From positions 195,873-259,872 of the forward strand of contig NZ_JALXFV010000003.1 in NCBI RefSeq assembly GCF_023699475.1: a stretch of 64,000 bases of DNA, given 5' to 3'. Both the position numbers and the translations under genes were made by a program. The first letter of the stretch is position 1. Each line of letters opens with the position of its first letter. Below, one piece after another: positions 26,131 through 37,601 of this stretch. The DNA comes from Halomarina rubra. Its GTDB lineage: Archaea > Halobacteriota > Halobacteria > Halobacteriales > Haloarculaceae. The notes below the pieces were generated by a model. The model saw nothing but the letters and a program-made list of their open reading frames with translations. It had not been told where the DNA came from and made no database searches.

Positions 26131-27312
26131 ATGGACGGCGACGCGGCCACCGACGACGCCACCGACATCGACCCCGCGACGGCGCTCGACGACGTCGACG
26201 TGGCGCTCGCCCACTGGGGGATGGCCGCTCGCGGCGGGGCCGAGACCGTCGTCGCCGCGATGGCCGACGCCCTCGACCTCGACCGGGTGTTCACCGTCGG
26301 CGAACCCGCCCCCGAGGTCCGGACGACGTACCCCGACGTCGAGTTCTACGACGTGCTCGCCGACGCCGCGTTCGAACCCGCCCGCCGCCTCCAGGCGCGC
26401 GCCGACCGTGTCTTCGAGTACGCGCTGTGGGAGGACGTCGACTGGACCGACTACGGCAGCCCCGACGTCCTGCTCACCTCCGGGGCGACGACGCGGGCGG
26501 TCATCACGCCCGACGAGACCCTCCACGTCAACTACTGCCACACGACGCCGCGCTGGCTCTACGACCGCTACCACGCCCGTATCGAGGAGTTACGCTGGCC
26601 GACGGAACTGGCTGCCCGCGTGGCGCTGCGCTACCTCCGGACCCGCGACGCCGCCGTCGACGACCGTGTCGACGACTACCTCGTCAACAGCCCCGTCATC
26701 GCCCGTCGGCTCTGGAAGTTCTACGACCGCGAGTCGACGGTGCTCTACCCGCCGGTCGACGTCGGCGCGTTCGAACCACGCGACTCGACCGAGGGCGACT
26801 TCTACCTCCACGCGGGCCGACTCGACCGCGAGAAAGGCGTCCGCGCGGTCGTCGAGGCGTTCGCCGACGGCGACCGCTCGCTCGTTCTCATCGGTCCGGA
26901 GGGCGACGACACCGAGCGCGTGCTGGCGGCCGTCGAACGCCACCCGAACGTCGAGTACCGCGGGTTCGTCTCGCTCGACGAGAAACGCGACCTGTACGAA
27001 CGCGCTCGGGCCGTGGTGTTCAACGGCGTCGCCGAGGACTTCGGCATCGTCCCCGTCGAGGCCGTCGCCGCCGGCACCGCCTGTCTCGCCCGCGAGGAGG
27101 GGTTCCCGGCGCTGTTCGTCGACGACCGAACGGGACTGTTCCACGACGGGTCGGTCGCGGGCATCCGCGACGCGCTCGACCGGTTCGAGGCCGACCCGTT
27201 CGCCGCCGAGTACGAGCGTGCCGAGCGGTTCGCACGCGAGCGCTTCGCCGACGAGCTGCGCGTCCACCTCGCCGAGCGCTACCGGGCGTTCGAACGTCGG
27301 TTCCGAGTCTGA
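26131..27312 (+). CDS. GT4-family glycosyltransferase
   Basis: A 393-residue glycosyltransferase starting MDGDAATDDATDIDPATALD. The N-terminal Rossmann domain (about 22-200) has the acceptor loop Trp-Gly-Met-Ala-Ala-Arg-Gly-Gly-Ala-Glu. The C-terminal domain (about 205-393) starts at Tyr-Leu-His-Ala-Gly-Arg-Leu-Asp-Arg-Glu-Lys-Gly and contains Glu-Asp-Phe-Gly-Ile-Val-Pro-Val-Glu, the E-x7-E donor motif of GT-B enzymes. It transfers a sugar from a nucleotide donor, probably on a lipid-linked glycan at the cytosolic membrane face, given the cluster that follows. Confidence 0.88.
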   Translation: MDGDAATDDATDIDPATALDDVDVALAHWGMAARGGAETVVAAMADALDLDRVFTVGEPAPEVRTTYPDVEFYDVLADAAFEPARRLQARADRVFEYALWEDVDWTDYGSPDVLLTSGATTRAVITPDETLHVNYCHTTPRWLYDRYHARIEELRWPTELAARVALRYLRTRDAAVDDRVDDYLVNSPVIARRLWKFYDRESTVLYPPVDVGAFEPRDSTEGDFYLHAGRLDREKGVRAVVEAFADGDRSLVLIGPEGDDTERVLAAVERHPNVEYRGFVSLDEKRDLYERARAVVFNGVAEDFGIVPVEAVAAGTACLAREEGFPALFVDDRTGLFHDGSVAGIRDALDRFEADPFAAEYERAERFARERFADELRVHLAERYRAFERRFRV

Positions 27313-27366: not shown

Positions 27367-28326
27367 TCAGCGGTAGCCGAGCGCCTGGAGGCGGCTCTCG
27401 ACTTCTTCGGAGGCGGCCTCCTCGACCGCCGTGACGCCGTCGTCGGTCACCTCGCGGCGGTCGCCGTCGAGCACGGCCCACGGCACGTCGACCAGCCCCG
27501 CCGACCGGAGCCCGCGAGGGTGGCCGTACCCACGGACCGGCAGGGGCCACATCCGCTCGCCCATGAGGTTGCCGTGGTCGCTCGTGAGCACGGTCGTGCC
27601 GCCGACGTCGGCCGCGAGGTCGAACGCCTCGTCGAGGACGTACCGGAGGTTGTCGGCGTACGCCGACAGCACCTGCTCGTGGTCGACTAACCCCATGTCG
27701 AGTGCCTGCCACGGGTCGTGAGGCCGCTCGTTCGCGTACGCGCCGTCGAGAATCTCGTCGGGCGACCAGCTCGCGTACCGGAGGTCGGGGTGGCCGACGA
27801 ACGGGTAGTGTGGCTGCATGAAGTGAACGACCAGCCGTTTGTCGGGGTGGCGTTCGTGGGCGTCGCGGGCGGCCGCCGCCACGTCCTCGGCGAGGACGGT
27901 CGCCTCCTCCTCGTCGAACCCCTCGCGCCAGACCTCGACGAGTTCGTGGAACGAGTCGCCCGCGACGGTCGAGGTGTAGGGGTTCGCCGAGACGTAGACG
28001 GTGTCGCCGAACTCGCGACCCGCGAACTGCGTCTCGGTCCACTCGGCGGTCATGCTCGCGGGGCTGCGTTCGGTGCGGTAGGCGTCGAACCGGTCGAGGT
28101 CGGTGACGGTGGCGAACAGGTCCGCCCGGCAGGCGTCGAGGACGAACAGCGAGTCCCAGTCCTCGTCCATCACCCGGACGCCCCGGTCGCCGTACAGTCG
28201 GCGGTGGGTCGGGACGGCGACGCGCTGGACGAGGCGCTGTTTCCACCAGAGCCGGTCGGCGGCGTGTTCCCGGAGTTCGTCGACGACGTAGCGAAGGGTG
28301 TCGAACGGAGCCACGACTACCGACAC
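27367..28326 (-). CDS. sulfatase/alkaline-phosphatase-superfamily protein
   Basis: A 319-residue protein of the alkaline phosphatase fold. The first metal site is visible as Leu-Phe-Val-Leu-Asp-Ala-Cys-Arg-Ala-Asp (near 60) and the second as Leu-Thr-Ser-Asp-His-Gly-Asn-Leu-Met-Gly-Glu (near 240). The chain lacks the formylglycine motif CxPxR. The C-terminus Leu-Gln-Ala-Leu-Gly-Tyr-Arg is a typical ending of haloarchaeal members of this family. No signal peptide is seen, so it may act on a cytosolic lipid-linked sugar. Its stop lies 54 nt from the preceding convergent gene. Confidence 0.8.
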   Translation of the reverse strand: MSVVVAPFDTLRYVVDELREHAADRLWWKQRLVQRVAVPTHRRLYGDRGVRVMDEDWDSLFVLDACRADLFATVTDLDRFDAYRTERSPASMTAEWTETQFAGREFGDTVYVSANPYTSTVAGDSFHELVEVWREGFDEEEATVLAEDVAAAARDAHERHPDKRLVVHFMQPHYPFVGHPDLRYASWSPDEILDGAYANERPHDPWQALDMGLVDHEQVLSAYADNLRYVLDEAFDLAADVGGTTVLTSDHGNLMGERMWPLPVRGYGHPRGLRSAGLVDVPWAVLDGDRREVTDDGVTAVEEAASEEVESRLQALGYR

Positions 28327-28381
28327 ACTCCACCGGAGCGCGGCATAAACGTTGATACGTCGGCCGGGGCAGGTTCAGACA

Positions 28382-29323
28382 GTGACGCCCGACGTCGACC
28401 TGCCGGCATCGCTGCGCGGGGACGGGACGCTCGTCTCGGTCGTCGTGCCGACGTACGAGGACGCCCGGTTCCTCCCCGCAGCCCTGGAGAGCATCGCCGC
28501 CCAGACCCACGGCAACGTCGAGATCGTCGTCGTCGACAGCTCCGGCGTCGACTGGCTGCGCGACCTCGCCGCCGACGTCGAGGGCCTGACGTACGTCTAC
28601 CAGGAGCCGAGCGGCCTGTCGGCGGCACGGAACGCCGGCATCGACGCCGCGAGCGGCGACGTCGTCGGGTTCCTCGACGCGGACGACCGCTGGGTTCCCG
28701 AGAAACTGGAGAAACAACTCGCGGCACTGGACGCCGGCGCGGACGTCGTCTACGGCGACGTCTACCTCCTCGAGGACGGTACGACACGCTACCAGTCGTC
28801 GCTCCCCGTCTCCGACCCCGAGCGCCACCACCTCGACTTCCTGTTCGAGGGCGGCGTGCCGATGCCGACCGTCGTCGCGCGCCGCGCGTGTTTCGACGAC
28901 GAACGGTTCGACGAGTCGCTCCCCGCCGTCGAGGACCGCCACATGTGGGCGCGACTGTTCGCCCGCTATCGACCCGCGCGCATCGCCGAACCGCTGGCGT
29001 ACTACGCCGTCCGCGAGGCGTCGATGAGTTCGGACGCCGACGTGATGTACGACGCCGAGCTGACGGTGCTCGCCGACCTCGCCGAACGGTACCCCGAGGT
29101 GGCCGAGGCGTACCCCGCCCTCGAACGGAAGGCCGCGTACAAACACGGCAAACGACTGCTTCGGGGCGGCGACGGGCGAGCCGCCCGCGAACCGCTCCGC
29201 CGCGCCGTCGCGGAGGGGATGACCGACCCGCGTGCGCTGGCCGCGCTCGCCGTCGCGTACGCCCCCGCTGGACACGCACGGCTGCTCGGACTGCTCGAAC
29301 GGGCGCAGGAACGACTGCGGTGA
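28382..29323 (+). CDS. GT2-family glycosyltransferase
   Basis: A 313-residue GT-A enzyme. A GTG at 28382 is chosen; a TTG 10 codons upstream is less likely. The catalytic domain opens Val-Ser-Val-Val-Val-Pro-Thr-Tyr-Glu-Asp, with Ala-Arg-Asn-Ala-Gly-Ile-Asp near 83-89 and the DxD-like Phe-Leu-Asp-Ala-Asp-Asp-Arg-Trp (about 97-104) that binds the nucleotide-sugar metal. The remainder is helical. It probably adds a sugar to a lipid-linked oligosaccharide. It is divergent from the sulfatase gene, with only 55 nt between the start codons. Confidence 0.9.
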   Translation: MTPDVDLPASLRGDGTLVSVVVPTYEDARFLPAALESIAAQTHGNVEIVVVDSSGVDWLRDLAADVEGLTYVYQEPSGLSAARNAGIDAASGDVVGFLDADDRWVPEKLEKQLAALDAGADVVYGDVYLLEDGTTRYQSSLPVSDPERHHLDFLFEGGVPMPTVVARRACFDDERFDESLPAVEDRHMWARLFARYRPARIAEPLAYYAVREASMSSDADVMYDAELTVLADLAERYPEVAEAYPALERKAAYKHGKRLLRGGDGRAAREPLRRAVAEGMTDPRALAALAVAYAPAGHARLLGLLERAQERLR

Positions 29324-29357
29324 GGAGCGCCGGTGACGCGACGGCGCGCCGCCGGAC

Positions 29358-30614
29358 TCAGAGGTAGCCCAGGTCGTGGAGGCGTTCGTCGATGTCGAGA
29401 CGTTCGGAGTCGACGGCGTCGAGACGGGGGAACTGTCGGCGCATCGCCCGTCGCCGGTCGGCGGCCGCCTCCCCGAGCGGTCGCCGTTCGTCGCGGTCGC
29501 GGTCGAGGTCGTAGAGGTCCGGCGACCAGTCCCGAGCGGGGTACTCGACGTACTTCTCCTCGCAGGTTCGGACCGCACGCTGCCAGTTCTCGTGCCCCCG
29601 GAGCGCCGCCCCGCAGGCCCGGATGTACGCCGTCCGGTCGTCGAACCCACCCAGCAGCGACGCGCCGTCGACGGTCGACTCGTCGAGGGGGACGCCGAGC
29701 AGGTCACAGAGCGTCGGCGCGACGTCCACCTGGCGACAGACCCCCGACTCGGTACCCGCGTCGACGCCCGGTCCCGACAGCACGAACGGGACGTTCGCGG
29801 TGGTGTCGTAGACGGTCTCGCCGTGGCCCGCTTCGAGGAAGTGGTCGGGGACGCCCGCCGGGACGAGGCGGTCGACGACGCGGTTGACCGCCCGTTCGAC
29901 GCGGCGGGTGTCGACCCCGCGCTCGTAGCGGAGTTTGTCCCGGAGGGTCTTCGCGGCCTCGTGGGCCGGGTGGCCACGCCAGGTGACGCTCTCGCCGTGG
30001 TCGCCGTGGAGGGCGACGACCGTGTCGTCGGGGAGGCGCTCGACGAGAGCTTCGAGGCGGGCGTCGAGCGCCGACAGCGCACGTTCGTACGGCCAGCGAC
30101 CGTACCGGCGCTCGTCGTACCCCTCGGGGACCGAGATGGGTTCGTGGAGCTCCCAGAGGTGGAGGTAACAGAAGAACGGGTCGTCGAGTTCGTCGAGACG
30201 CTCGCCGGCGGTGCGCTCCCACGGGCCGAACAGGGACGCCTCCTTCTCGCGGTAGTGGTACGCGTCGAACCCGCGGTCGAGGTCGGTCTCCTCGACCAGC
30301 GGGCCGGTCACCATCGCACAGGTGTCGTAGCCCGCCGCGGAGAGGCGCTCGGCGAGCGTCGTCGTCTCGGCGTTCAGTCGCGCCTCGCGCAGCGACGTGA
30401 CGCCGTTGTGTTCGGAGTACTGGCCCGTCATCAGCCCCGCGACGCATGGCGTCGTCGTCGTCGCGGTGGCGAACAGGTCGGTGTAGACGCGACCGTCGGC
30501 ACGCAGCGAGTCGAGAAACGGCGTCTCGCCCCAGCCGTCGACGACGGCGTCGTTCCGGAGACAGTCGACACAGACGAACAGCAGGTTCGGGGGGGAGGAC
30601 TGCGAGTCGGTCAT
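29358..30614 (-). CDS. sulfatase-fold protein lacking the formylglycine Cys
   Basis: A 418-residue protein starting MTDSQSSPPNLLFVCVDCLR. The metal site Asp-Cys-Leu-Arg-Asn-Asp, the later Leu-His-Gly-Asp-His-Gly-Glu-Ser and the closing Leu-His-Asp-Leu-Gly-Tyr-Leu mark the sulfatase superfamily. At the place of the catalytic CxPxR stands Thr-Thr-Pro-Cys-Val followed by Ala-Gly-Leu-Met-Thr-Gly-Gln-Tyr-Ser-Glu-His-Asn-Gly. The nucleophile position is therefore Thr, as in phosphoglycerol or phosphoethanolamine transferases, and Arg is missing. Its substrate may be a phosphate or phospholipid rather than sulfate ester. Confidence 0.85.
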   Translation of the reverse strand: MTDSQSSPPNLLFVCVDCLRNDAVVDGWGETPFLDSLRADGRVYTDLFATATTTTPCVAGLMTGQYSEHNGVTSLREARLNAETTTLAERLSAAGYDTCAMVTGPLVEETDLDRGFDAYHYREKEASLFGPWERTAGERLDELDDPFFCYLHLWELHEPISVPEGYDERRYGRWPYERALSALDARLEALVERLPDDTVVALHGDHGESVTWRGHPAHEAAKTLRDKLRYERGVDTRRVERAVNRVVDRLVPAGVPDHFLEAGHGETVYDTTANVPFVLSGPGVDAGTESGVCRQVDVAPTLCDLLGVPLDESTVDGASLLGGFDDRTAYIRACGAALRGHENWQRAVRTCEEKYVEYPARDWSPDLYDLDRDRDERRPLGEAAADRRRAMRRQFPRLDAVDSERLDIDERLHDLGYL

Positions 30615-30758
30615 CGGGGGAGTTCGGTCACCACTTGGTGACGCTGGCCAATAGTGTGACGGTCCGGAATCGGAGACGGTCGGTCGCGAGGGCGTCACCG
30701 CCGGTGGGTCGGACGCACGGTCGGCGAGACGACGAGTCGGCCACCGTGCCGGGAGCCG

Positions 30759-32186
30759 TCAGCGTGCGGTCGGGAGATTGCGCTGGACCGTCGCCCGGAA
30801 CCGCTGTGAGAGCCCCGACAGCACGAGGAAGTAGACGCTCGCGCCGACACCGATGAGGACGAACGTCAGCACGGTGTTCGTCGGGTCGAGCGCGATGGCC
30901 TCCCGTGCGGCGTAGACGACGACGGCCATCGCCACCGCAGCGCCCACCTGGTTTGCGAGTTCACGGCGGGGGACCGGGAGGGCGACGTACCGCCGGAGGA
31001 AGACGTAGCCGAGCACCAGCCCGACGACGGCGGAGGTCGTGGTGGCGACGGCGGCTCCCAGCCAGCCGAACGCGGCGACGAGGACGACGTTCAACACGAG
31101 GTTCGTCCCGACGAACGCGACGTTGACCCGGAAGGCGACGTCGGGGTGGTCGAGCGCCGCCAGCACGGAGGTGAACTGTGACTCGTAGACGTACACCAGT
31201 CGCGCGAACACGAGCACGACGAGCACCAGCCACCCCTTCGTGAACTCCGCGCCGTAGACGCCGAGGACGGCGTCGCCGAGGACGACACAGCCCGCGAGGC
31301 CGGGGATGACGAACAGTCCGGAGTACGCGAGGCTGTCCTCGACCAGACCGCTGATGGCCTCCGGGTCGTCCTCGTTGTCGAGCTTGCTGATGGCCGGGAA
31401 CAGCGTCGTCGCGATGGACGCGCCGAACACCGCGAGGATGGAAGCGAGGTTCCACGCGATCTCGTAGACGCCGATGAGTCCCGAGGAGACCGCGAACGCG
31501 CCGAGGACGAGCGTGTCCATCGAGGCGAACGTCCGGGACTCGATGCCGCTGAACCACGAGTAGCGGGCGTAGTCGACCACGTCCACGACCTGCTCGCGGG
31601 TCGGCAGGCGCGGGCGCAACGACAGGAGCGCGAGACCGACGACGGACGTGACCAGCTCCGCGACGGCGTAGCCCGTCAGCAGCCACCACACCGTGCCGAA
31701 CCCGGCGACGACGACCGCGACCTGCAGCCCGCTGCGGAGCGTCCGGTCGAGCGGGCGTAACAGCGAGGCGACGTGGACGCGGTGGTCGCCCTCCAGCGCC
31801 GCCATCACCTGCCAGAGCAGGAGACCGGTGAACAGCAACGCGACCAGCGGGAGGGCCGCGCCGTCGACCCGGACGAACGCGTCGACCTGCTCGCGGAAGG
31901 CGAGCACGCCGGTCGCGACGACGACGAACGCGAGCAGTTGCAGGCCGAACCCCGCTCCGAGGAACTGCCGGCGACGCTCGCCCTCGCTGATGCGCTTGCG
32001 GACCGCCATCTGGATGCCCTGGCCGCTGAGCACCTTCAGCCACACCAGCACCGCGACGACGAGGAAGTAGTTCCCGAGCAGTTCGCTGCCGAGTTCCCGG
32101 GCGAGGTACACCGTCACCACGAACCCGAGCAGCGACGTGAGGACCTGCGAGACGAAGTGGACGACCGAGGTCTGGCCTATCCGCAT
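30759..32186 (-). CDS. oligosaccharide flippase (Wzx/AglR-like)
   Basis: A 475-residue polytopic protein with 12-14 hydrophobic helices and short polar loops. It opens MRIGQTSVVHFVSQVLTSLL, a conserved start of archaeal polysaccharide flippases, followed by Tyr-Leu-Ala-Arg-Glu-Leu-Gly-Ser-Glu-Leu-Leu-Gly-Asn-Tyr-Phe. The second half shows the same Tyr-Phe-Leu pattern and ends with the basic tail Gln-Arg-Asn-Leu. It is expected to move a lipid-linked glycan across the cell membrane for surface glycosylation. Sulfatase and glycosyltransferase genes flank it on both sides. Confidence 0.88.
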   Translation of the reverse strand: MRIGQTSVVHFVSQVLTSLLGFVVTVYLARELGSELLGNYFLVVAVLVWLKVLSGQGIQMAVRKRISEGERRRQFLGAGFGLQLLAFVVVATGVLAFREQVDAFVRVDGAALPLVALLFTGLLLWQVMAALEGDHRVHVASLLRPLDRTLRSGLQVAVVVAGFGTVWWLLTGYAVAELVTSVVGLALLSLRPRLPTREQVVDVVDYARYSWFSGIESRTFASMDTLVLGAFAVSSGLIGVYEIAWNLASILAVFGASIATTLFPAISKLDNEDDPEAISGLVEDSLAYSGLFVIPGLAGCVVLGDAVLGVYGAEFTKGWLVLVVLVFARLVYVYESQFTSVLAALDHPDVAFRVNVAFVGTNLVLNVVLVAAFGWLGAAVATTTSAVVGLVLGYVFLRRYVALPVPRRELANQVGAAVAMAVVVYAAREAIALDPTNTVLTFVLIGVGASVYFLVLSGLSQRFRATVQRNLPTAR

Positions 32187-32229
32187 CGTCGGACCCGTCG
32201 CGCGGGAGCGGTCGGTCGGTCGAGCATCC

Positions 32230-33582
32230 CTACTCCGCGTACCCGAGGTCCCGGAGACGGGACTTCACGTCCTCGGTCATCTCGACCTCGTCGAGGTCCT
32301 CGGCGGTCGCGGCGACGGTGTCGCGGTGGTCGTCGAGGACCGCCTCGATGCGCTCGCGCTCGTCGGAAAACTCGCCCGAGACGTCCGTGCGTTCCTCGGG
32401 GTCCGCCTCGAGGTCGTACAGCGCGGTCTCGCCCGCGAGGTCGACGAACTTCCAGCGGTCGTCGCGGTAGGCGTAGCGGAACTCGGTGCGCTCGCCGTCC
32501 GCCCAGTCCCCGACGACGTGCTCGCGGGGCCACTCGTCGTCCTCGACGAGCGCGCGGAGACTGTGGCCGTAGAACGCCTCGGACTGCTCCTGGCCGGCGT
32601 AGTCGACGAGCGTCGGCGTCACGTCGAGCATCCCGACGATGTCCTCGTGGGTCGCGCCCGCGTCGTCGCCGACGTCGACCACCAGCGGGACGTGGGTGAC
32701 CTCGTCGTGGAACGTCTGACTGTGGCTGAACCCGCCGTGTTCGCGGAACTCCTCGCCGTGGTCGGACGTGAAACAGACGACGGGGTCGTCCCACGCCGCC
32801 CGGACGCGCTCGACGAGGCGACCGACCTCGGCGTCGGTGTAGCGTATCTCGGCGTCGTAGAGGTCGATGATGGTGTCGAGTTCCTCGTCGGTGACCTCGC
32901 CGGGGTCTTCGATCATCTTCCGGCGGAGTTTGATGGACTCGCGCTCGCCGACCGGGTCGTCGCGGAACGGGCGCTGGTGTTCGGCCGGCGGGACGTACGG
33001 GTGGTGGACGTCCATGTAGTGGACCCAGAGGAACCGGGGGCCGTCGCGCTGGCGCTCGGCCCACTCGATACCCATGTCGGTCATCTCGTCGGCCCGGACG
33101 TACGCCGACCCGACGTTGACGCCCGCCTCCTTCTCGGCGGTCTCGACCGCTCGCGAGAGGAACTGGAACAGCCGACCGTCCTCGTCGAGTCGCTCCTTGA
33201 CCTCCTGTTTGAGCCGTGCGAGTCCGGAGGGGTCGGTCTTCGAGTCGAAGAACTCGTCGAAGCCACGCCCGTAGCCGAACTCCTCGGAGAGGTAGAGGTT
33301 CGAGTGGAACCCGGCCGTCGAGAACTCGGGTTTCAACGCCTCGGAGACGAGCGTCCGGCGCTCGGAGATGCGCTCGTAGCCCCCGTACATCAGAGCCGTC
33401 GAGGAGGTGAGGATGGAGGGGAACGACGGACGGGTCGCGCAGGCGTGGGAGAACGCGTTCTCGAACGTGTGGCCCTCGCCCGCGAGGTCGTCGACGTTCG
33501 GCGTCGTCGGACGGTCGTACCCGTAGCAGCCGACGTGGTCGGCGCGCAGCGAGTCGACCGTGATGAACAGCACGTCTCTCAT
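32230..33582 (-). CDS. sulfatase-fold protein lacking the formylglycine Cys
   Basis: A 450-residue protein starting MRDVLFITVDSLRADHVGCY, the standard opening of the sulfatase superfamily (metal-binding Asp10 and Asp15). The nucleophile region reads Ala-Cys-Ala-Thr-Arg-Pro-Ser-Phe-Pro-Ser-Ile-Leu-Thr-Ser: the CxPxR Cys is Thr and the Arg is Phe. Later metal ligands are in Thr-Ser-Asp-His-Gly-Glu-Glu-Phe, and the C-terminus is Arg-Leu-Arg-Asp-Leu-Gly-Tyr-Ala-Glu. The start lies 4 nt after the GT4 stop, so it is in one operon with the genes at 33587-35650. Confidence 0.88.
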   Translation of the reverse strand: MRDVLFITVDSLRADHVGCYGYDRPTTPNVDDLAGEGHTFENAFSHACATRPSFPSILTSSTALMYGGYERISERRTLVSEALKPEFSTAGFHSNLYLSEEFGYGRGFDEFFDSKTDPSGLARLKQEVKERLDEDGRLFQFLSRAVETAEKEAGVNVGSAYVRADEMTDMGIEWAERQRDGPRFLWVHYMDVHHPYVPPAEHQRPFRDDPVGERESIKLRRKMIEDPGEVTDEELDTIIDLYDAEIRYTDAEVGRLVERVRAAWDDPVVCFTSDHGEEFREHGGFSHSQTFHDEVTHVPLVVDVGDDAGATHEDIVGMLDVTPTLVDYAGQEQSEAFYGHSLRALVEDDEWPREHVVGDWADGERTEFRYAYRDDRWKFVDLAGETALYDLEADPEERTDVSGEFSDERERIEAVLDDHRDTVAATAEDLDEVEMTEDVKSRLRDLGYAE

Positions 33583-33586
33583 CTTC

Positions 33587-34573
33587 TCACCCACTCCTCG
33601 CCACGGCTTCGAGTACCTTTCCGTACGTCGCCGCCACCCGCTCGTAGTCGAACTGCTCGACGAACGCCCGGAACGCCGCGCTGTCGGCTCGTTCGCCCGC
33701 CTCGCGGACGGCACGGGCCACGTCGGGGCCGGTCGGGTCGGCGTACGCGACGTGCTCGCCGAAGCGCTCCTCCGCACGGCCCCGCGCCTGGACGACGCCC
33801 AGACCCGCCGCGCCGTACTCCAGCACCTTGAGCGTGTGCGGGTCGTCGACCAGCGAGACGCCGACGTCCGCGGCGTGGAGGTACCCCGGCACGGCCGCGT
33901 GGTCGACGGTGCCGAGGAAGACGACGTTCTCGTGTTCGCGGGCGGCCCGTTCGACGGTCGATTCGAGGCTGCCCGCGCCGAGGACGACGAACGTCCAGTC
34001 GTCGAGGTGTCGGGCCGCGTCGAGCATCGCCTCGACGTGGTAGATGGGTTCGAGGCCGCCGACGTAGACGAGGACGTTCCCCTCGACGCCCGCCTCGGCC
34101 AGTCGGGACCGAGCGCGCTCGACCACGTCTGCGGGCGGGTCGGCGAACCGCTCGAACGAGACGCCGAGGTCCGTCTTCGTCGCCGCACGTGCGTACCGTC
34201 GAACACGGCGGGCTTCCTCCTCGTAGACGTACAGCACGTGGTCGGCGACACGGAACGCGACGTTCTCGGCGAGGCGGACGCCCGTCGCCAGCCAGCGCGG
34301 GTGGGTCGTCTCGAACTGCCGGATGGGGTCGACGTGGTCGACCACCAGCGGCGTCCCGAGCGCCCTCGTGGTGAGGCCGGCGAGCGCTCCCGAGCGGGTC
34401 GTGCCGACGACGACGTCGTAGCGCGAGCGCTCGCCGAGCGTCTCGCGGAGCGTGGCGGGGGTCGTCCCTCGCAGCGTCACGTCGAAGCCGTCGGCTTCGA
34501 GACAGTCGGCGATGCGTCGTCGCCCGACGCTGATGTGCTCGGGCTTGTCGGGCGTCAGCCAGCAGACGCGCAT
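33587..34573 (-). CDS. GT4-family glycosyltransferase
   Basis: A 328-residue GT-B enzyme starting MRVCWLTPDKPEHISVGRRR. The C-terminal half begins Val-Leu-Val-Tyr-Val-Gly-Gly-Leu-Glu-Pro-Ile-Tyr-His-Val-Glu and includes Pro-Gly-Tyr-Leu-His-Ala-Ala-Asp-Val-Gly-Val-Ser-Leu and Leu-Lys-Val-Leu-Glu-Tyr-Gly-Ala-Ala-Gly, which hold the donor-binding Glu of GT4 enzymes. Its start directly abuts the stop of the WecB-like gene (34574-34576), and the sulfatase follows 4 nt later, giving a tight three-gene operon. The sugar and acceptor are unknown. Confidence 0.88.
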   Translation of the reverse strand: MRVCWLTPDKPEHISVGRRRIADCLEADGFDVTLRGTTPATLRETLGERSRYDVVVGTTRSGALAGLTTRALGTPLVVDHVDPIRQFETTHPRWLATGVRLAENVAFRVADHVLYVYEEEARRVRRYARAATKTDLGVSFERFADPPADVVERARSRLAEAGVEGNVLVYVGGLEPIYHVEAMLDAARHLDDWTFVVLGAGSLESTVERAAREHENVVFLGTVDHAAVPGYLHAADVGVSLVDDPHTLKVLEYGAAGLGVVQARGRAEERFGEHVAYADPTGPDVARAVREAGERADSAAFRAFVEQFDYERVAATYGKVLEAVARSG

Positions 34574-35650
34574 TCAGGTCTGGGCGTCGAGCACGTCGAC
34601 GATGTGTTCGCCGGCGCTGCCGTCGCCGTAGAGGTCGGGGTGGCCCGTCATCGCCTCGCGGGCGGCGTCGTCGGTGAGGAGGGTCTCCAGTCGGCCCTCC
34701 AGTTCGTCGGGTTCGACGAGTTCGTTGACGCCCGCGGCGACCGTCTCGGGGCGTTCGGTGTTCGGCCGGACCGTCAGGCAGGGCACTTCGAGGATGGAGG
34801 TCTCCTCCTGGATACCCCCCGAGTCGGTGACGGCGACGCGGGCGTGGTTCAGCAGTTGGAGGAAGTCGAGGTAGTCGAGCGGGTCGACGAGGCGGAGCGA
34901 CCCCGACGGTTCGTAGCCCATCTCGTCGAGGACGTTCGTCGTCCGGGGGTGAGCGGGCAGAATCACCGGCGCGCTCGCCGAATCGAGCACGGCCACGATC
35001 TCGCGCAGGCGCTCGGGGTCGTCGGTGTTGCTCGCGCGGTGGATGGTGGCGGCGACGTAGTCCTCGCCGGCGACGCCGAGGTCCTCGAGCACCGTCGAGC
35101 GCTCGGCCGCCATCGGTGCGTGGTCACGGCAGGCGTCGACGATGGTGTTGCCCGTCTCGTAGACGCCCGCGGTGACGCCCTCGTCTTCGAGGTGCTCGAT
35201 GGCCTTCGCCGTCGGAGCGAAGGAGAAGTCCGCGACGTGGTCCGCGACGACGCGGTTGACCTCCTCGGGCATCGTTCGGTCGAAGCTCCGCAGACCCGCC
35301 TCGACGTGGCCGAACTTCGTCGAGAGCTTCGAGGCCGCCAGCGCCGTCGAGAGCACCGCGTTCGTGTCGCCCAACGCGAGGACCGCGGCGGGTTCGCGCT
35401 CGCTCAACATCGCCTCGACGCCGACGAGTCCGGAGGCGGTCTGTTCGGCCTGGCTCCCCGAACCGATCTCGAGGTTGTCGTCGGGCGTCGGCAGGTCCAG
35501 CGACTCGAAGAACGCGCCGCTCATCTCGTCGTCGTAGTGCTGCCCGGTGTGGACCAGATGCAGGTCGAAACGGCCCTCGGCCGCCCGAATCACGGGGGCC
35601 ATCTTGATGATCTCTGGTCGGGTCCCGACGACGACCGCGAGTTCTCGCAT
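34574..35650 (-). CDS. wecB: UDP-N-acetylglucosamine 2-epimerase (non-hydrolysing)
   Basis: A 358-residue WecB-type epimerase starting MRELAVVVGTRPEIIKMAPV, with the GTRPEIIK loop at 9-16, His-Thr-Gly-Gln-His-Tyr near 36-41, Gly-Asp-Thr-Asn-Ala-Val near 93-98, and the later Val-Thr-Asp-Ser-Gly-Gly-Ile-Gln-Glu-Glu block that binds UDP. It interconverts UDP-GlcNAc and UDP-ManNAc in the cytosol, giving precursors for surface glycans. It heads an operon with the GT4 gene and the sulfatase-fold gene and is divergent from the acyl-CoA ligase gene. Confidence 0.92.
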   Translation of the reverse strand: MRELAVVVGTRPEIIKMAPVIRAAEGRFDLHLVHTGQHYDDEMSGAFFESLDLPTPDDNLEIGSGSQAEQTASGLVGVEAMLSEREPAAVLALGDTNAVLSTALAASKLSTKFGHVEAGLRSFDRTMPEEVNRVVADHVADFSFAPTAKAIEHLEDEGVTAGVYETGNTIVDACRDHAPMAAERSTVLEDLGVAGEDYVAATIHRASNTDDPERLREIVAVLDSASAPVILPAHPRTTNVLDEMGYEPSGSLRLVDPLDYLDFLQLLNHARVAVTDSGGIQEETSILEVPCLTVRPNTERPETVAAGVNELVEPDELEGRLETLLTDDAAREAMTGHPDLYGDGSAGEHIVDVLDAQT

Positions 35651-35768
35651 ACGGAGTACGCCAACGGACGACCACTTGCCTCTTTCTCCCGCGCTCGTGT
35701 CAGGAACAGTCTCACACCCGTGAACGCAGCTATATGTCCGAGAAAATCTATAACGGTTCTGAGACTCT

Positions 35769-37601
35769 ATGGCAGTCGACCACACAACGACGACCGAAGC
35801 GAGCGAGCGGCCCGTCCACGACGGGGGACCGCTCGACGTCCCGGCGGGACCGTTGGCCCGGTGGTTCCGCGACCGCGTCCAGACGTACGGTGACCTCCCG
35901 GCGACGATGCACCGTGCCAGCGACCGAGGTGGAGCGGACGGAGCGTTCGTCGCGACGACCTTCGACGCGTTCTACGACGAGGCCGTCGCCGTCGCCGGCG
36001 GCTTCCTCCAGACGATGGAGCCGGGGGACAGGCTGGGTATCCGTGCCGAGACGCGCTACGAGTGGTCGCTGGTCGACGTCGCGAGCATCCTCGCCGGACT
36101 GGTGCTCGTTCCGGTCTACCCGTCGTTCAGCCCCGAACAGGCGCGGTACGTCCTCGAAGACGCCGGCGTCCGGACGCTCGTCACCGAACGCGACCCGCCC
36201 CTCGAAGTGGCGGGAGCCGTCGAGTGGGTCGTCGACGTCGAGGACCTGCCCCGCGACGAGGGGTTCGAGGAGGACGACCTGCCAGGGTTCGACGTCGAGG
36301 ACGACGACCTCGCGACCATCATCTACACCTCGGGCACCACGGGGTTCCCGAAGGGGTGTGAACTCACCCACCGCAACTTCCTCGCCCAGCTCGCGGCGGT
36401 CGCCTCGTTCATCGACTCGGAACCCGGCGACACCTCGACGTGTTTCCTCCCGCTGAGCCACGTCTATCAGCGCATCTCGAACTACGCCGACTGGAACCAG
36501 GGCGTCGCCACCGTGTTCATCGAGGTGCCGAGACTGCTCGAGGACCTCGGCGAGACCCAGCCAAACGGGTTCGTCACCGTCCCGCGGGTGTACCGCCGGA
36601 TGTACGACGGCGTCCAGAAGCAGATTCGCGAGACGGAGGGCGCACGTGGCCGTATCGCGCGCTGGGCGGTCGGCGTCGCCCACGAGTACGGCCGCGCGGT
36701 CGACGGCGGGGGGACGCCCGGACCGGGCCTGCGCGCGCGTCACGCGCTCGCCGACCGACTGGTCTACGGGCAGTTGCGCGAGCGCCTCGGCCTGCGCGAC
36801 GTGAACTTCGCCATCACCGGCGCGGCGAGCATCGACGCCGACCTGCTGCACTTCCTGTGGGGCATCGGCGTCCCCGTCATGGAGGGGTACGGTGCGACCG
36901 AGACGGCCGCCGGCGGGACGCTCAACCGCCCCGGCGAGATGCGAGCGGGGACCGTCGGCAGACCCGTCCCCGGTATCGAGATAACGCTCGCCGACGACGG
37001 CGAGGTGCTCATCCGCGGCCCACAGGTGTTCCGCGGCTACTGGAACAATCCCGAAGCGACCGCGGAGGCCATCGACGCCGACGGCTGGTACCACACCGGC
37101 GACGTCGGCGAGTGGGACGGCGAGTTCCTGAAGATCGTCGACCGGAAGAAGCGCCTCCAAGTGCTCGACACGGGAAAGAACGTCTACCCCGGTCCCATCG
37201 AGACCGCGCTACGGCGCAGCCCCTACATCGGCGAGGCGATGGTCGTCGGCGAGGGTCGGAAGTACGTCACCGCGCTCGTCCAGCCGAACTTCGACGTGGT
37301 GGTGTCGTTCGCCGAGGAACGCGGCCTCGCGTACGACGAGGAGGCCGTCGAACGCGACGACGACGGCACGGTCGTCGCCGTCCCGACCGAACTGCTCGAC
37401 CACGAGGCGGTGCGCGACCTCCTCCAGGCGGAGGTCGACGCCGCGAACGCCGACCTCGCGGGCTACGAACAGGTCAAACGCATCGCCGTCGTCGAACGGA
37501 CGTTCACCGTCGAGAACGAGGAGTTGACGCCGACGCTGAAGAAGCGTCGCCGGAACATCGCCGAGAACTTCGGGGACCGCATCGAGGCGCTGTACGTCTG
37601 A
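35769..37601 (+). CDS. long-chain acyl-CoA ligase (AMP-forming synthetase)
   Basis: A 610-residue adenylate-forming enzyme. The ATP loop Tyr-Thr-Ser-Gly-Thr-Thr-Gly-Phe-Pro-Lys-Gly is at 186-196; Tyr-Gly-Ala-Thr-Glu-Thr follows near 375, Gly-Trp-Tyr-His-Thr-Gly-Asp near 440 and the Asp-Arg-Lys-Lys hinge near 457. A C-terminal Lys region closes the active site. It activates a fatty or aromatic acid as acyl-AMP and then acyl-CoA. Archaeal lipids are ethers, so use for degradation or for isoprenoid-related acids is more likely than membrane synthesis. Tata-like sequences lie 19-36 nt before the ATG. Confidence 0.93.
   Translation: MAVDHTTTTEASERPVHDGGPLDVPAGPLARWFRDRVQTYGDLPATMHRASDRGGADGAFVATTFDAFYDEAVAVAGGFLQTMEPGDRLGIRAETRYEWSLVDVASILAGLVLVPVYPSFSPEQARYVLEDAGVRTLVTERDPPLEVAGAVEWVVDVEDLPRDEGFEEDDLPGFDVEDDDLATIIYTSGTTGFPKGCELTHRNFLAQLAAVASFIDSEPGDTSTCFLPLSHVYQRISNYADWNQGVATVFIEVPRLLEDLGETQPNGFVTVPRVYRRMYDGVQKQIRETEGARGRIARWAVGVAHEYGRAVDGGGTPGPGLRARHALADRLVYGQLRERLGLRDVNFAITGAASIDADLLHFLWGIGVPVMEGYGATETAAGGTLNRPGEMRAGTVGRPVPGIEITLADDGEVLIRGPQVFRGYWNNPEATAEAIDADGWYHTGDVGEWDGEFLKIVDRKKRLQVLDTGKNVYPGPIETALRRSPYIGEAMVVGEGRKYVTALVQPNFDVVVSFAEERGLAYDEEAVERDDDGTVVAVPTELLDHEAVRDLLQAEVDAANADLAGYEQVKRIAVVERTFTVENEELTPTLKKRRRNIAENFGDRIEALYV

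Follow-up and report, generated by a model that had tools for sequence, protein, structure and literature searches.

The window examined here, a 64,000-nucleotide stretch of the Halomarina rubra genome (contig NZ_JALXFV010000003.1), contains a gene cluster that encodes three proteins of the sulfatase fold, referred to below as A, B and C (Table 1). In our surveys the source genome carries the handle G000, and the cluster lies on its contig C10. As the original prediction pointed out, the three genes alternate with genes for glycosyltransferases and a flippase. A gene for the UDP-GlcNAc 2-epimerase WecB also belongs to the cluster. Our preferred reading is that A, B and C are part of an N-glycosylation type of gene cluster for surface glycans.

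Table 1. Genes of the H. rubra cluster with their positions in the window, and site residues of A, B and C.
Feature	Position	Strand	Basis	Site residues
GT4-family glycosyltransferase, other edge of cluster	26131-27312	plus	PF00534, E 2.7e-19	
A: 319-aa sulfatase-fold protein, VNG1063H type	27367-28326	minus	open reading frame (ORF)	DxxRxD 64-69, Thr93, HxxQPH 168-173, DHG 250-252, His269
GT2-family glycosyltransferase	28352-29323	plus	PF00535, E 1e-30	
B: 418-aa sulfatase-fold protein	29358-30614	minus	ORF; PF00884	Asp17, Arg20, Asp22, Thr54 (TTPCV), His157, Asp205-His206, His264
polysaccharide/oligosaccharide flippase	30759-32186	minus	PF01943, E 5e-21	
C: 450-aa sulfatase-fold protein	32230-33582	minus	ORF; PF00884	Asp10, Arg13, Asp15, Thr50 (TRPSF), DHG 274-276
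GT4-like glycosyltransferase	33587-34573	minus	closest match in genome G044 adjoins the C homologue there	
WecB, non-hydrolysing UDP-GlcNAc 2-epimerase	34574-35785	minus	TIGR00236, above cut-off	

The prediction that A, B and C have the sulfatase fold and lack the formylglycine cysteine is borne out by sequence profiles and by structural models. Both B (E 6.4e-26) and C (E 5.6e-45) match the Pfam family PF00884 above its curated cut-off; A is the weakest match of the three (E 6.4e-4) and falls below it. Models were calculated for A and B, while the fold of C is assigned from its sequence profile. AlphaFold2 gave a mean predicted local distance difference test score (pLDDT) of 91.4 and a predicted template modelling score (pTM) of 0.88 for A (53 sequences), and a pLDDT of 92.0 and a pTM of 0.93 for B (33 sequences). 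Among the best 50 chains listed for the A model, EptA-type proteins and sulfatases appear side by side at Z 13-16. The EptA structures 5fgn (Z 15.7, root-mean-square deviation (rmsd) 5.5, 242 residues aligned) and 4kav (Z 15.7, rmsd 3.5, 209 aligned) come out on top, and the best sulfatases among these chains are 9koq (Z 14.5), 6hhm (14.4) and 5g2u (14.1). We regard 15.7 against 14.5 as near a tie. The B model is closest to sulfatases (6hr5: Z 35.5, rmsd 2.6, 326 aligned; 4upl: Z 34.5) and reaches Z 29.9 with phosphonate monoester hydrolases; no EptA-type chain is found among the best 50 listed, which leaves lower-ranked EptA matches possible. In the comparison with phosphoethanolamine transferases that had been proposed as a check, A is nearest to EptA by a small margin and B is nearest to sulfatases. 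By sequence, B and C are also nearest to sulfatases, and both match the phosphonate monoester hydrolases RlPMH and SpPMH, which carry formylglycine.

In formylglycine-dependent sulfatases (S1), the Cys or Ser of a [C/S]xPxR motif is turned into formylglycine. The CxPxR motif is absent from the sequences of A, B and C. When aligned to solved structures, Thr54 of B (TTPCV) falls on the STPSR stretch of the sulfatase 7lha and Thr50 of C (TRPSF) on the AGPSR stretch of 4upi, in both cases at the formylglycine place. This confirms the assignment of these two threonines in the original prediction. For A, the absence of CxPxR had been recognized correctly, and a hydroxyl residue at the same place had gone unseen: an hhalign comparison of the A and B family profiles (Prob 98.4, E 4.2e-15) aligns Thr93 of A under Thr54 of B. 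In the models a helix starts at both residues (93-101 in A, 54-63 in B). A Cys or Ser nucleophile accompanied by Arg at the site, which had been named as one finding that would speak against the prediction, occurs in none of the three sequences.

These features extend to the families of the three proteins. Relatives were chosen at a phmmer E-value of 1e-20; each set counts the protein of the window as well as the copy from its own genome, and the B and C sets overlap in part. Position 93 of A is Ser in 35 and Thr in 26 of 61 rows, position 54 of B is Thr in 62 and Ser in 1 of 63 rows, and position 50 of C is Thr in 140, Ser in 3 and Cys in 2 of 145 rows (Ser/Thr: 143/145). Over the three partly overlapping alignments this amounts to Ser or Thr in 267 of 269 rows. 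The families also have in common the Asp-x-x-Arg-x-Asp and DHG motifs, joined by two histidines in A (H173 and H269) and B (H157 and H264). Within the A family the putative site residues Asp64, Asp250, His251, His173 and His269 are invariant (61/61 rows), and so are H168, Q171 and P172 in front of H173. The place of the first metal ligand is occupied by Asp in A, B and C, and by Asp in 61/61, 61/63 and 138/145 rows of the respective families, with Glu in the remainder. Since Thr/Ser, DxxRxD and DHG, plus the histidines of A and B, are kept across the families, these sites are conserved rather than decayed. The missing formylglycine motif and the conservation of Thr/Ser in each family also support the earlier statement that the proteins are probably not sulfatases. 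With formylglycine sulfatases (PF00884, S1) they share the fold and the DHG frame, and such enzymes are the best structural matches of B; the differences are Thr instead of the Cys in CxPxR, a C-terminal LxxLGY tail and a biosynthetic setting. In the open-licence literature searched, we found no discussion of Thr in place of formylglycine in this clan.

The tail is present at the end of all three proteins (A: LQALGYR, B: LHDLGYL, C: LRDLGYAE). The 12 PF00884 hits of G000 separate completely by this feature, with the tail in 7/7 proteins without CxPxR and in 0/5 with CxPxR. Three Halobacterium genomes contain 13 PF00884 hits, of which none has CxPxR and 12 have the tail. Tail and nucleophile type were counted in those relatives whose site could be read by a regular expression, a scope that excludes many ORFs with extended frames or odd spacing. 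On this basis, archaeal relatives outside the A family have the tail in 39/41 Thr-type, 3/4 Ser-type and 0/3 Cys-type proteins, the last being a small sample. In 66 bacterial Thr-type rows the tail is terminal in 19, precedes an extension in 28 and is absent in 19, and it is terminal in one of two bacterial Ser rows. The A family has it in 61 of 63 cases. As an observation apart, bacterial Thr-type relatives with TLPSHxSxxTG and similar motifs (loci among L036-L112) often continue after LxxLGY with a C-terminal extension of at least 200 residues.

Sulfatase-fold proteins of this kind have been studied in Halobacterium salinarum, which encodes three of them in its aglB cluster (PMC11980604). 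According to that study, most N-glycan sulfation in this organism needs Agl30 (VNG1056C) and Agl31 (VNG1057C), and expression of either protein in Hfx. volcanii leads to a sulfated glycan. The assignment as sulfate was also based on nuclear magnetic resonance (NMR). Agl30 is membrane-associated and Agl31 is soluble; the parts of the study covered here do not take up the question of the nucleophile. The UniProt entries of VNG1056C, VNG1057C and VNG1063H are Q9HQQ3, Q9HQQ2 and Q9HQP7. The peak 19-residue hydropathy of A (1.05), B (1.03) and C (0.64) reveals no strongly hydrophobic stretch. By this crude measure, used here in place of a dedicated topology or signal predictor, the three proteins would lack a membrane segment and resemble soluble Agl31.

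In the cloning primers for Agl30 and Agl31, we set the boundary between protein end and tag by what we take to be the StrepII sequence. Translated in this way, the primers (PMC11980604) encode the C-termini HLEDLGYL for VNG1056C and LEELGYT for VNG1057C. Agl30 and Agl31, which are proven in sulfation, share the LxxLGY tail of the whole clan. What they have in common with A, B and C is the alkaline-phosphatase superfamily, the location in a glycan gene cluster and, as far as the primers tell, this tail. The Agl30/31 cluster lies at aglB, whereas the H. rubra cluster lies away from it, and the proteins are compared by their primer-encoded ends only.

The third H. salinarum protein, VNG1063H, could be placed in the same manner. 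One open frame of a validation primer reads KELGYIE. The primer for quantitative polymerase chain reaction (qPCR) encodes VHYFQPH, the hallmark of the A family, and in this frame matches two A-like genes of Halobacterium with 3/22 mismatches. We therefore group A with VNG1063H. In the published DALI comparison the best match of both VNG1056C and VNG1063H is 5G2U (PMC11980604); this structure is not at the top for the A model, which is not decisive either way. H. salinarum itself was not found among our 391 genomes, where the best match to its S-layer peptide was 83%, nor among the 13 genomes of the genus.

Two more specific assignments were tried and rejected. A conserved pair in eight Halobacterium genomes, with a B-like gene following an A-like gene, had suggested the pair VNG1056C-VNG1057C, and with it B as the Agl31 orthologue; the neighbourhoods fetched turned out not to be the aglB cluster. 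A possible membrane stretch at residues 24-42 of the A-like protein of G018, compared with 21-39 in VNG1056C, had suggested that A is Agl30. This was dropped because the qPCR primer puts VNG1063H in the A family; a further point against it is that one frame of a VNG1056C primer reads DFGHLDM, a motif that A-type proteins do not have.

By analogy, we lean toward reading B and C as cytosolic glycan sulfotransferases of the Agl30/31 type. They would sulfate the lipid-linked glycan in the cytosol before flipping, as Agl30 and Agl31 do in H. salinarum. The conserved Thr would stand where sulfatases have formylglycine, next to a metal coordinated by the Asp of DxxRxD and the Asp-His of DHG, and activated sulfate would be passed to a sugar hydroxyl, either by way of a sulfo-threonine or directly in line. 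With no formylglycine hydrate, sulfate should not be released to water as in sulfatases, which favours transfer. Sulfatases with a Cys-to-Ser exchange trap sulfate on the enzyme, so that a Thr enzyme should hydrolyse poorly and be suited to transfer. We infer from this comparison the Agl30/31 reaction for B and C, as well as the chemistry of the Thr and the site of action. A belongs to the VNG1063H family and has the catalytic frame and the gene cluster in common with B and C; it, too, is probably a transferase. If the reading is correct, Thr in place of formylglycine and the LxxLGY tail would separate makers of sulfate esters from removers within one fold, and glycan sulfation would become predictable from genomes; the question of the sulfate donor in haloarchaea would become testable as well. 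Agl7 of Hfx. volcanii is said to contribute to sulfation (PMC3871713). In Halorubrum sp. PV6 a sulfatase gene lies two tags from aglB and the glycan contains a hexuronic acid that is sulfated or phosphorylated (PMC6137143), which is consistent with glycan sulfotransferases.

Several observations weigh against this reading. In H. salinarum, basal sulfation persists without Agl30 and Agl31, and deletion of VNG1063H leaves sulfation unchanged (PMC11980604). The link from B and C to Agl30/31 is drawn from primer-encoded C-termini, not from full-length sequences. The LxxLGY tail is also present in many bacterial Thr-type relatives and so marks a wide clan and not a reaction. For the A model it is EptA that ranks first. 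Sulfate and phosphate differ by 9.5 mDa in mass, and mass shifts alone therefore cannot separate the two. The aglB gene of G000 is located on contig C15, where the 19.9 kb fetched around it are free of A-, B- and C-like genes, and the aglB regions of four Halobacterium genomes (G018, G012, G003 and G319) contain no A- or C-type genes in the stretch fetched. Finally, canonical sulfate activation is scarce. Of 242 haloarchaeal genomes, 15 have an APS (adenosine 5'-phosphosulfate) kinase above cut-off and 16 have a match at E 1e-10, compared with 219 that have A-like proteins; G000 has no apsK match at E 1e-10. For ATP sulfurylase (PF01747) no match was obtained in any of eight genomes, three of them Halobacterium, and G000 has none; none of 14 genomes has CysN above cut-off, with G000 returning sub-cut-off matches only.

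Lower-scoring CysN matches are present in all 14 genomes and are taken for elongation factors. G000 has three weak PF01583 hits, and the two of them that were scanned proved to be FtsY and a P-loop kinase. The scanned PF01507 hits are a protein of G000 and G018 that resembles CysD but scores well below the CysD cut-offs, NcsA (G018) and DndC (G137). No APS kinase match falls in a Halobacterium genome, provided that both surveys drew on the same genome set, as the handles suggest. Since H. salinarum nevertheless sulfates its glycans, 3'-phosphoadenosine 5'-phosphosulfate (PAPS) is either made otherwise or is not the donor. More broadly, haloarchaea might sulfate surface glycans by a Thr/Ser-type, LxxLGY-tailed clan of the sulfatase fold without PAPS from ATP sulfurylase and APS kinase, in which case this clan, widespread in bacteria too, would constitute an unrecognized second kind of sulfotransferase with a fold unrelated to that of PAPS sulfotransferases. 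We put this forward tentatively, as a possibility that is rather doubtful at present. Independently of this possibility, G000 contains two copies of the PF01507 CysD-like PP-loop protein (G000:C11:67215-70277) with a 329-aa ORF between them on the opposite strand; PF01507 matches with the same pattern exist in other genomes surveyed, and two of the proteins were scanned.

The scarcity of APS kinase is equally compatible with a transfer of phosphate, particularly by A. The original prediction had favoured phospho- or glycerophosphotransferases. With such an enzyme, a nucleotide or lipid would donate phosphoglycerol, phosphoethanolamine or another phosphodiester to the Thr, which would pass this phospho group on to the glycan, as in EptA, MCR and LtaS. 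Thr is the nucleophile of these families; EptA, EptC and MCR-1 share with A, B and C the fold and, in position, this residue. EptA, EptC and MCR chains rank first for the A model (Z 15.7-14.6 among the chains listed), although this is near a tie with the best sulfatase as noted, and the NCBIfam matches of C to phosphoethanolamine transferases are weak, with a best E of 9.5e-11 and every one far below cut-off. The bacterial phosphoethanolamine and lipoteichoic acid (LTA) enzymes are membrane-anchored, use phospholipid donors and act outside the cell. EptA and LtaS have an N-terminal membrane domain, and their first metal ligand is Glu. A, B and C show no strongly hydrophobic stretch and have Asp at the ligand place, as do most members of their families. 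For B and C, phosphate transfer is thus less well supported than sulfate transfer, in view of the sulfation by the same-tailed Agl30 and Agl31 (PMC11980604), the missing hydrophobic stretch and the proximity of the B model and of both sequences to sulfatases. For A alone we keep it as a possibility, given that EptA ranks first and that VNG1063H has no sulfation phenotype, a result that assigns A no function. Taken for all three proteins, phosphate transfer seems unlikely, if a serious contender.

Hydrolysis is a clearly more remote explanation, and we consider it improbable that A, B and C are sulfatases, phosphatases or phosphodiesterases that use a Thr nucleophile to trim or recycle intermediates of the glycan. 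The superfamily does include Thr-type hydrolases such as NPP and PafA, B exceeds the cut-off of the Phosphodiest profile (36.6 vs 23 bits), and PehA matches, though far under the cut-off, are seen for both B and C. Yet the formylglycine motif is missing, the genes stand among glycosyltransferases and a flippase, and Agl30 and Agl31 add sulfate and do not remove it (PMC11980604). Moreover, G000 keeps its five CxPxR sulfatases elsewhere. These form an island of their own on contig C9 (13702-36980; CCPTR, CSPSR, CAPSR, CAPAR and CLPSR), apart from the glycan cluster and with no LxxLGY tail in any of them, which may be a locus for the degradation of sulfated polysaccharides. Still further down, we think it very improbable that some of the three proteins, A in particular, have kept the fold as partners without catalytic activity. 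The weak PF00884 match of A and the lack of a phenotype for VNG1063H (same source) would fit this idea; the invariance of the putative site residues of A and the strict Ser/Thr at residue 93 in 61/61 rows argue against it.

Coming back to B and C as sulfotransferases, the gene neighbourhoods connect the cluster with aglB in other genomes. The genes that come after aglB in G137 include the closest matches to the glycosyltransferase at 33587 (53%), to A (57%), to the glycosyltransferase at 28352 (59%), to the flippase (47%) and to C (59%). A second case is G221, where aglB is found together with matches of C (56%), A (56%) and the glycosyltransferase at 28352 (59%). These are two of seven non-Halobacterium genomes with a located aglB that have A and C homologues beside this gene; a B homologue was not found beside aglB. 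G044 and G208 group C, B, the glycosyltransferase at 28352 and A, with aglB on a different contig. In the eight Halobacterium aglB regions, A- and C-type genes lie within about 10 kb in G067, G035 and G376 and 12-19 kb away in G245.

Matches to B occur in 118 of 242 haloarchaeal genomes (E 1e-10), whereas the count of A-like proteins given above was made at E 1e-5; near full-length matches with 40-68% identity were found in 15 genomes besides G000 (16 matches). Among 25 plasmid records listed, members of the A family are mostly annotated as hypothetical, once as LTA synthase family and once as sulfatase-like. If our reading holds, the names in such records (sulfatase, sulfatase-like, LTA synthase family, hypothetical) direct readers to the wrong reaction. 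Two minor observations concern related loci. The tandem of A-like and B-like genes is conserved in Halobacterium (G067:C1:1464200-1465995, and also G012, G035, G003, G094, G234, G127 and G023) and, as far as the regions fetched extend, is not located near aglB. In G245, the glycan cluster holds a PF01663 phosphodiesterase-type protein (L210:2413-3897), which belongs to another branch of the alkaline-phosphatase superfamily.

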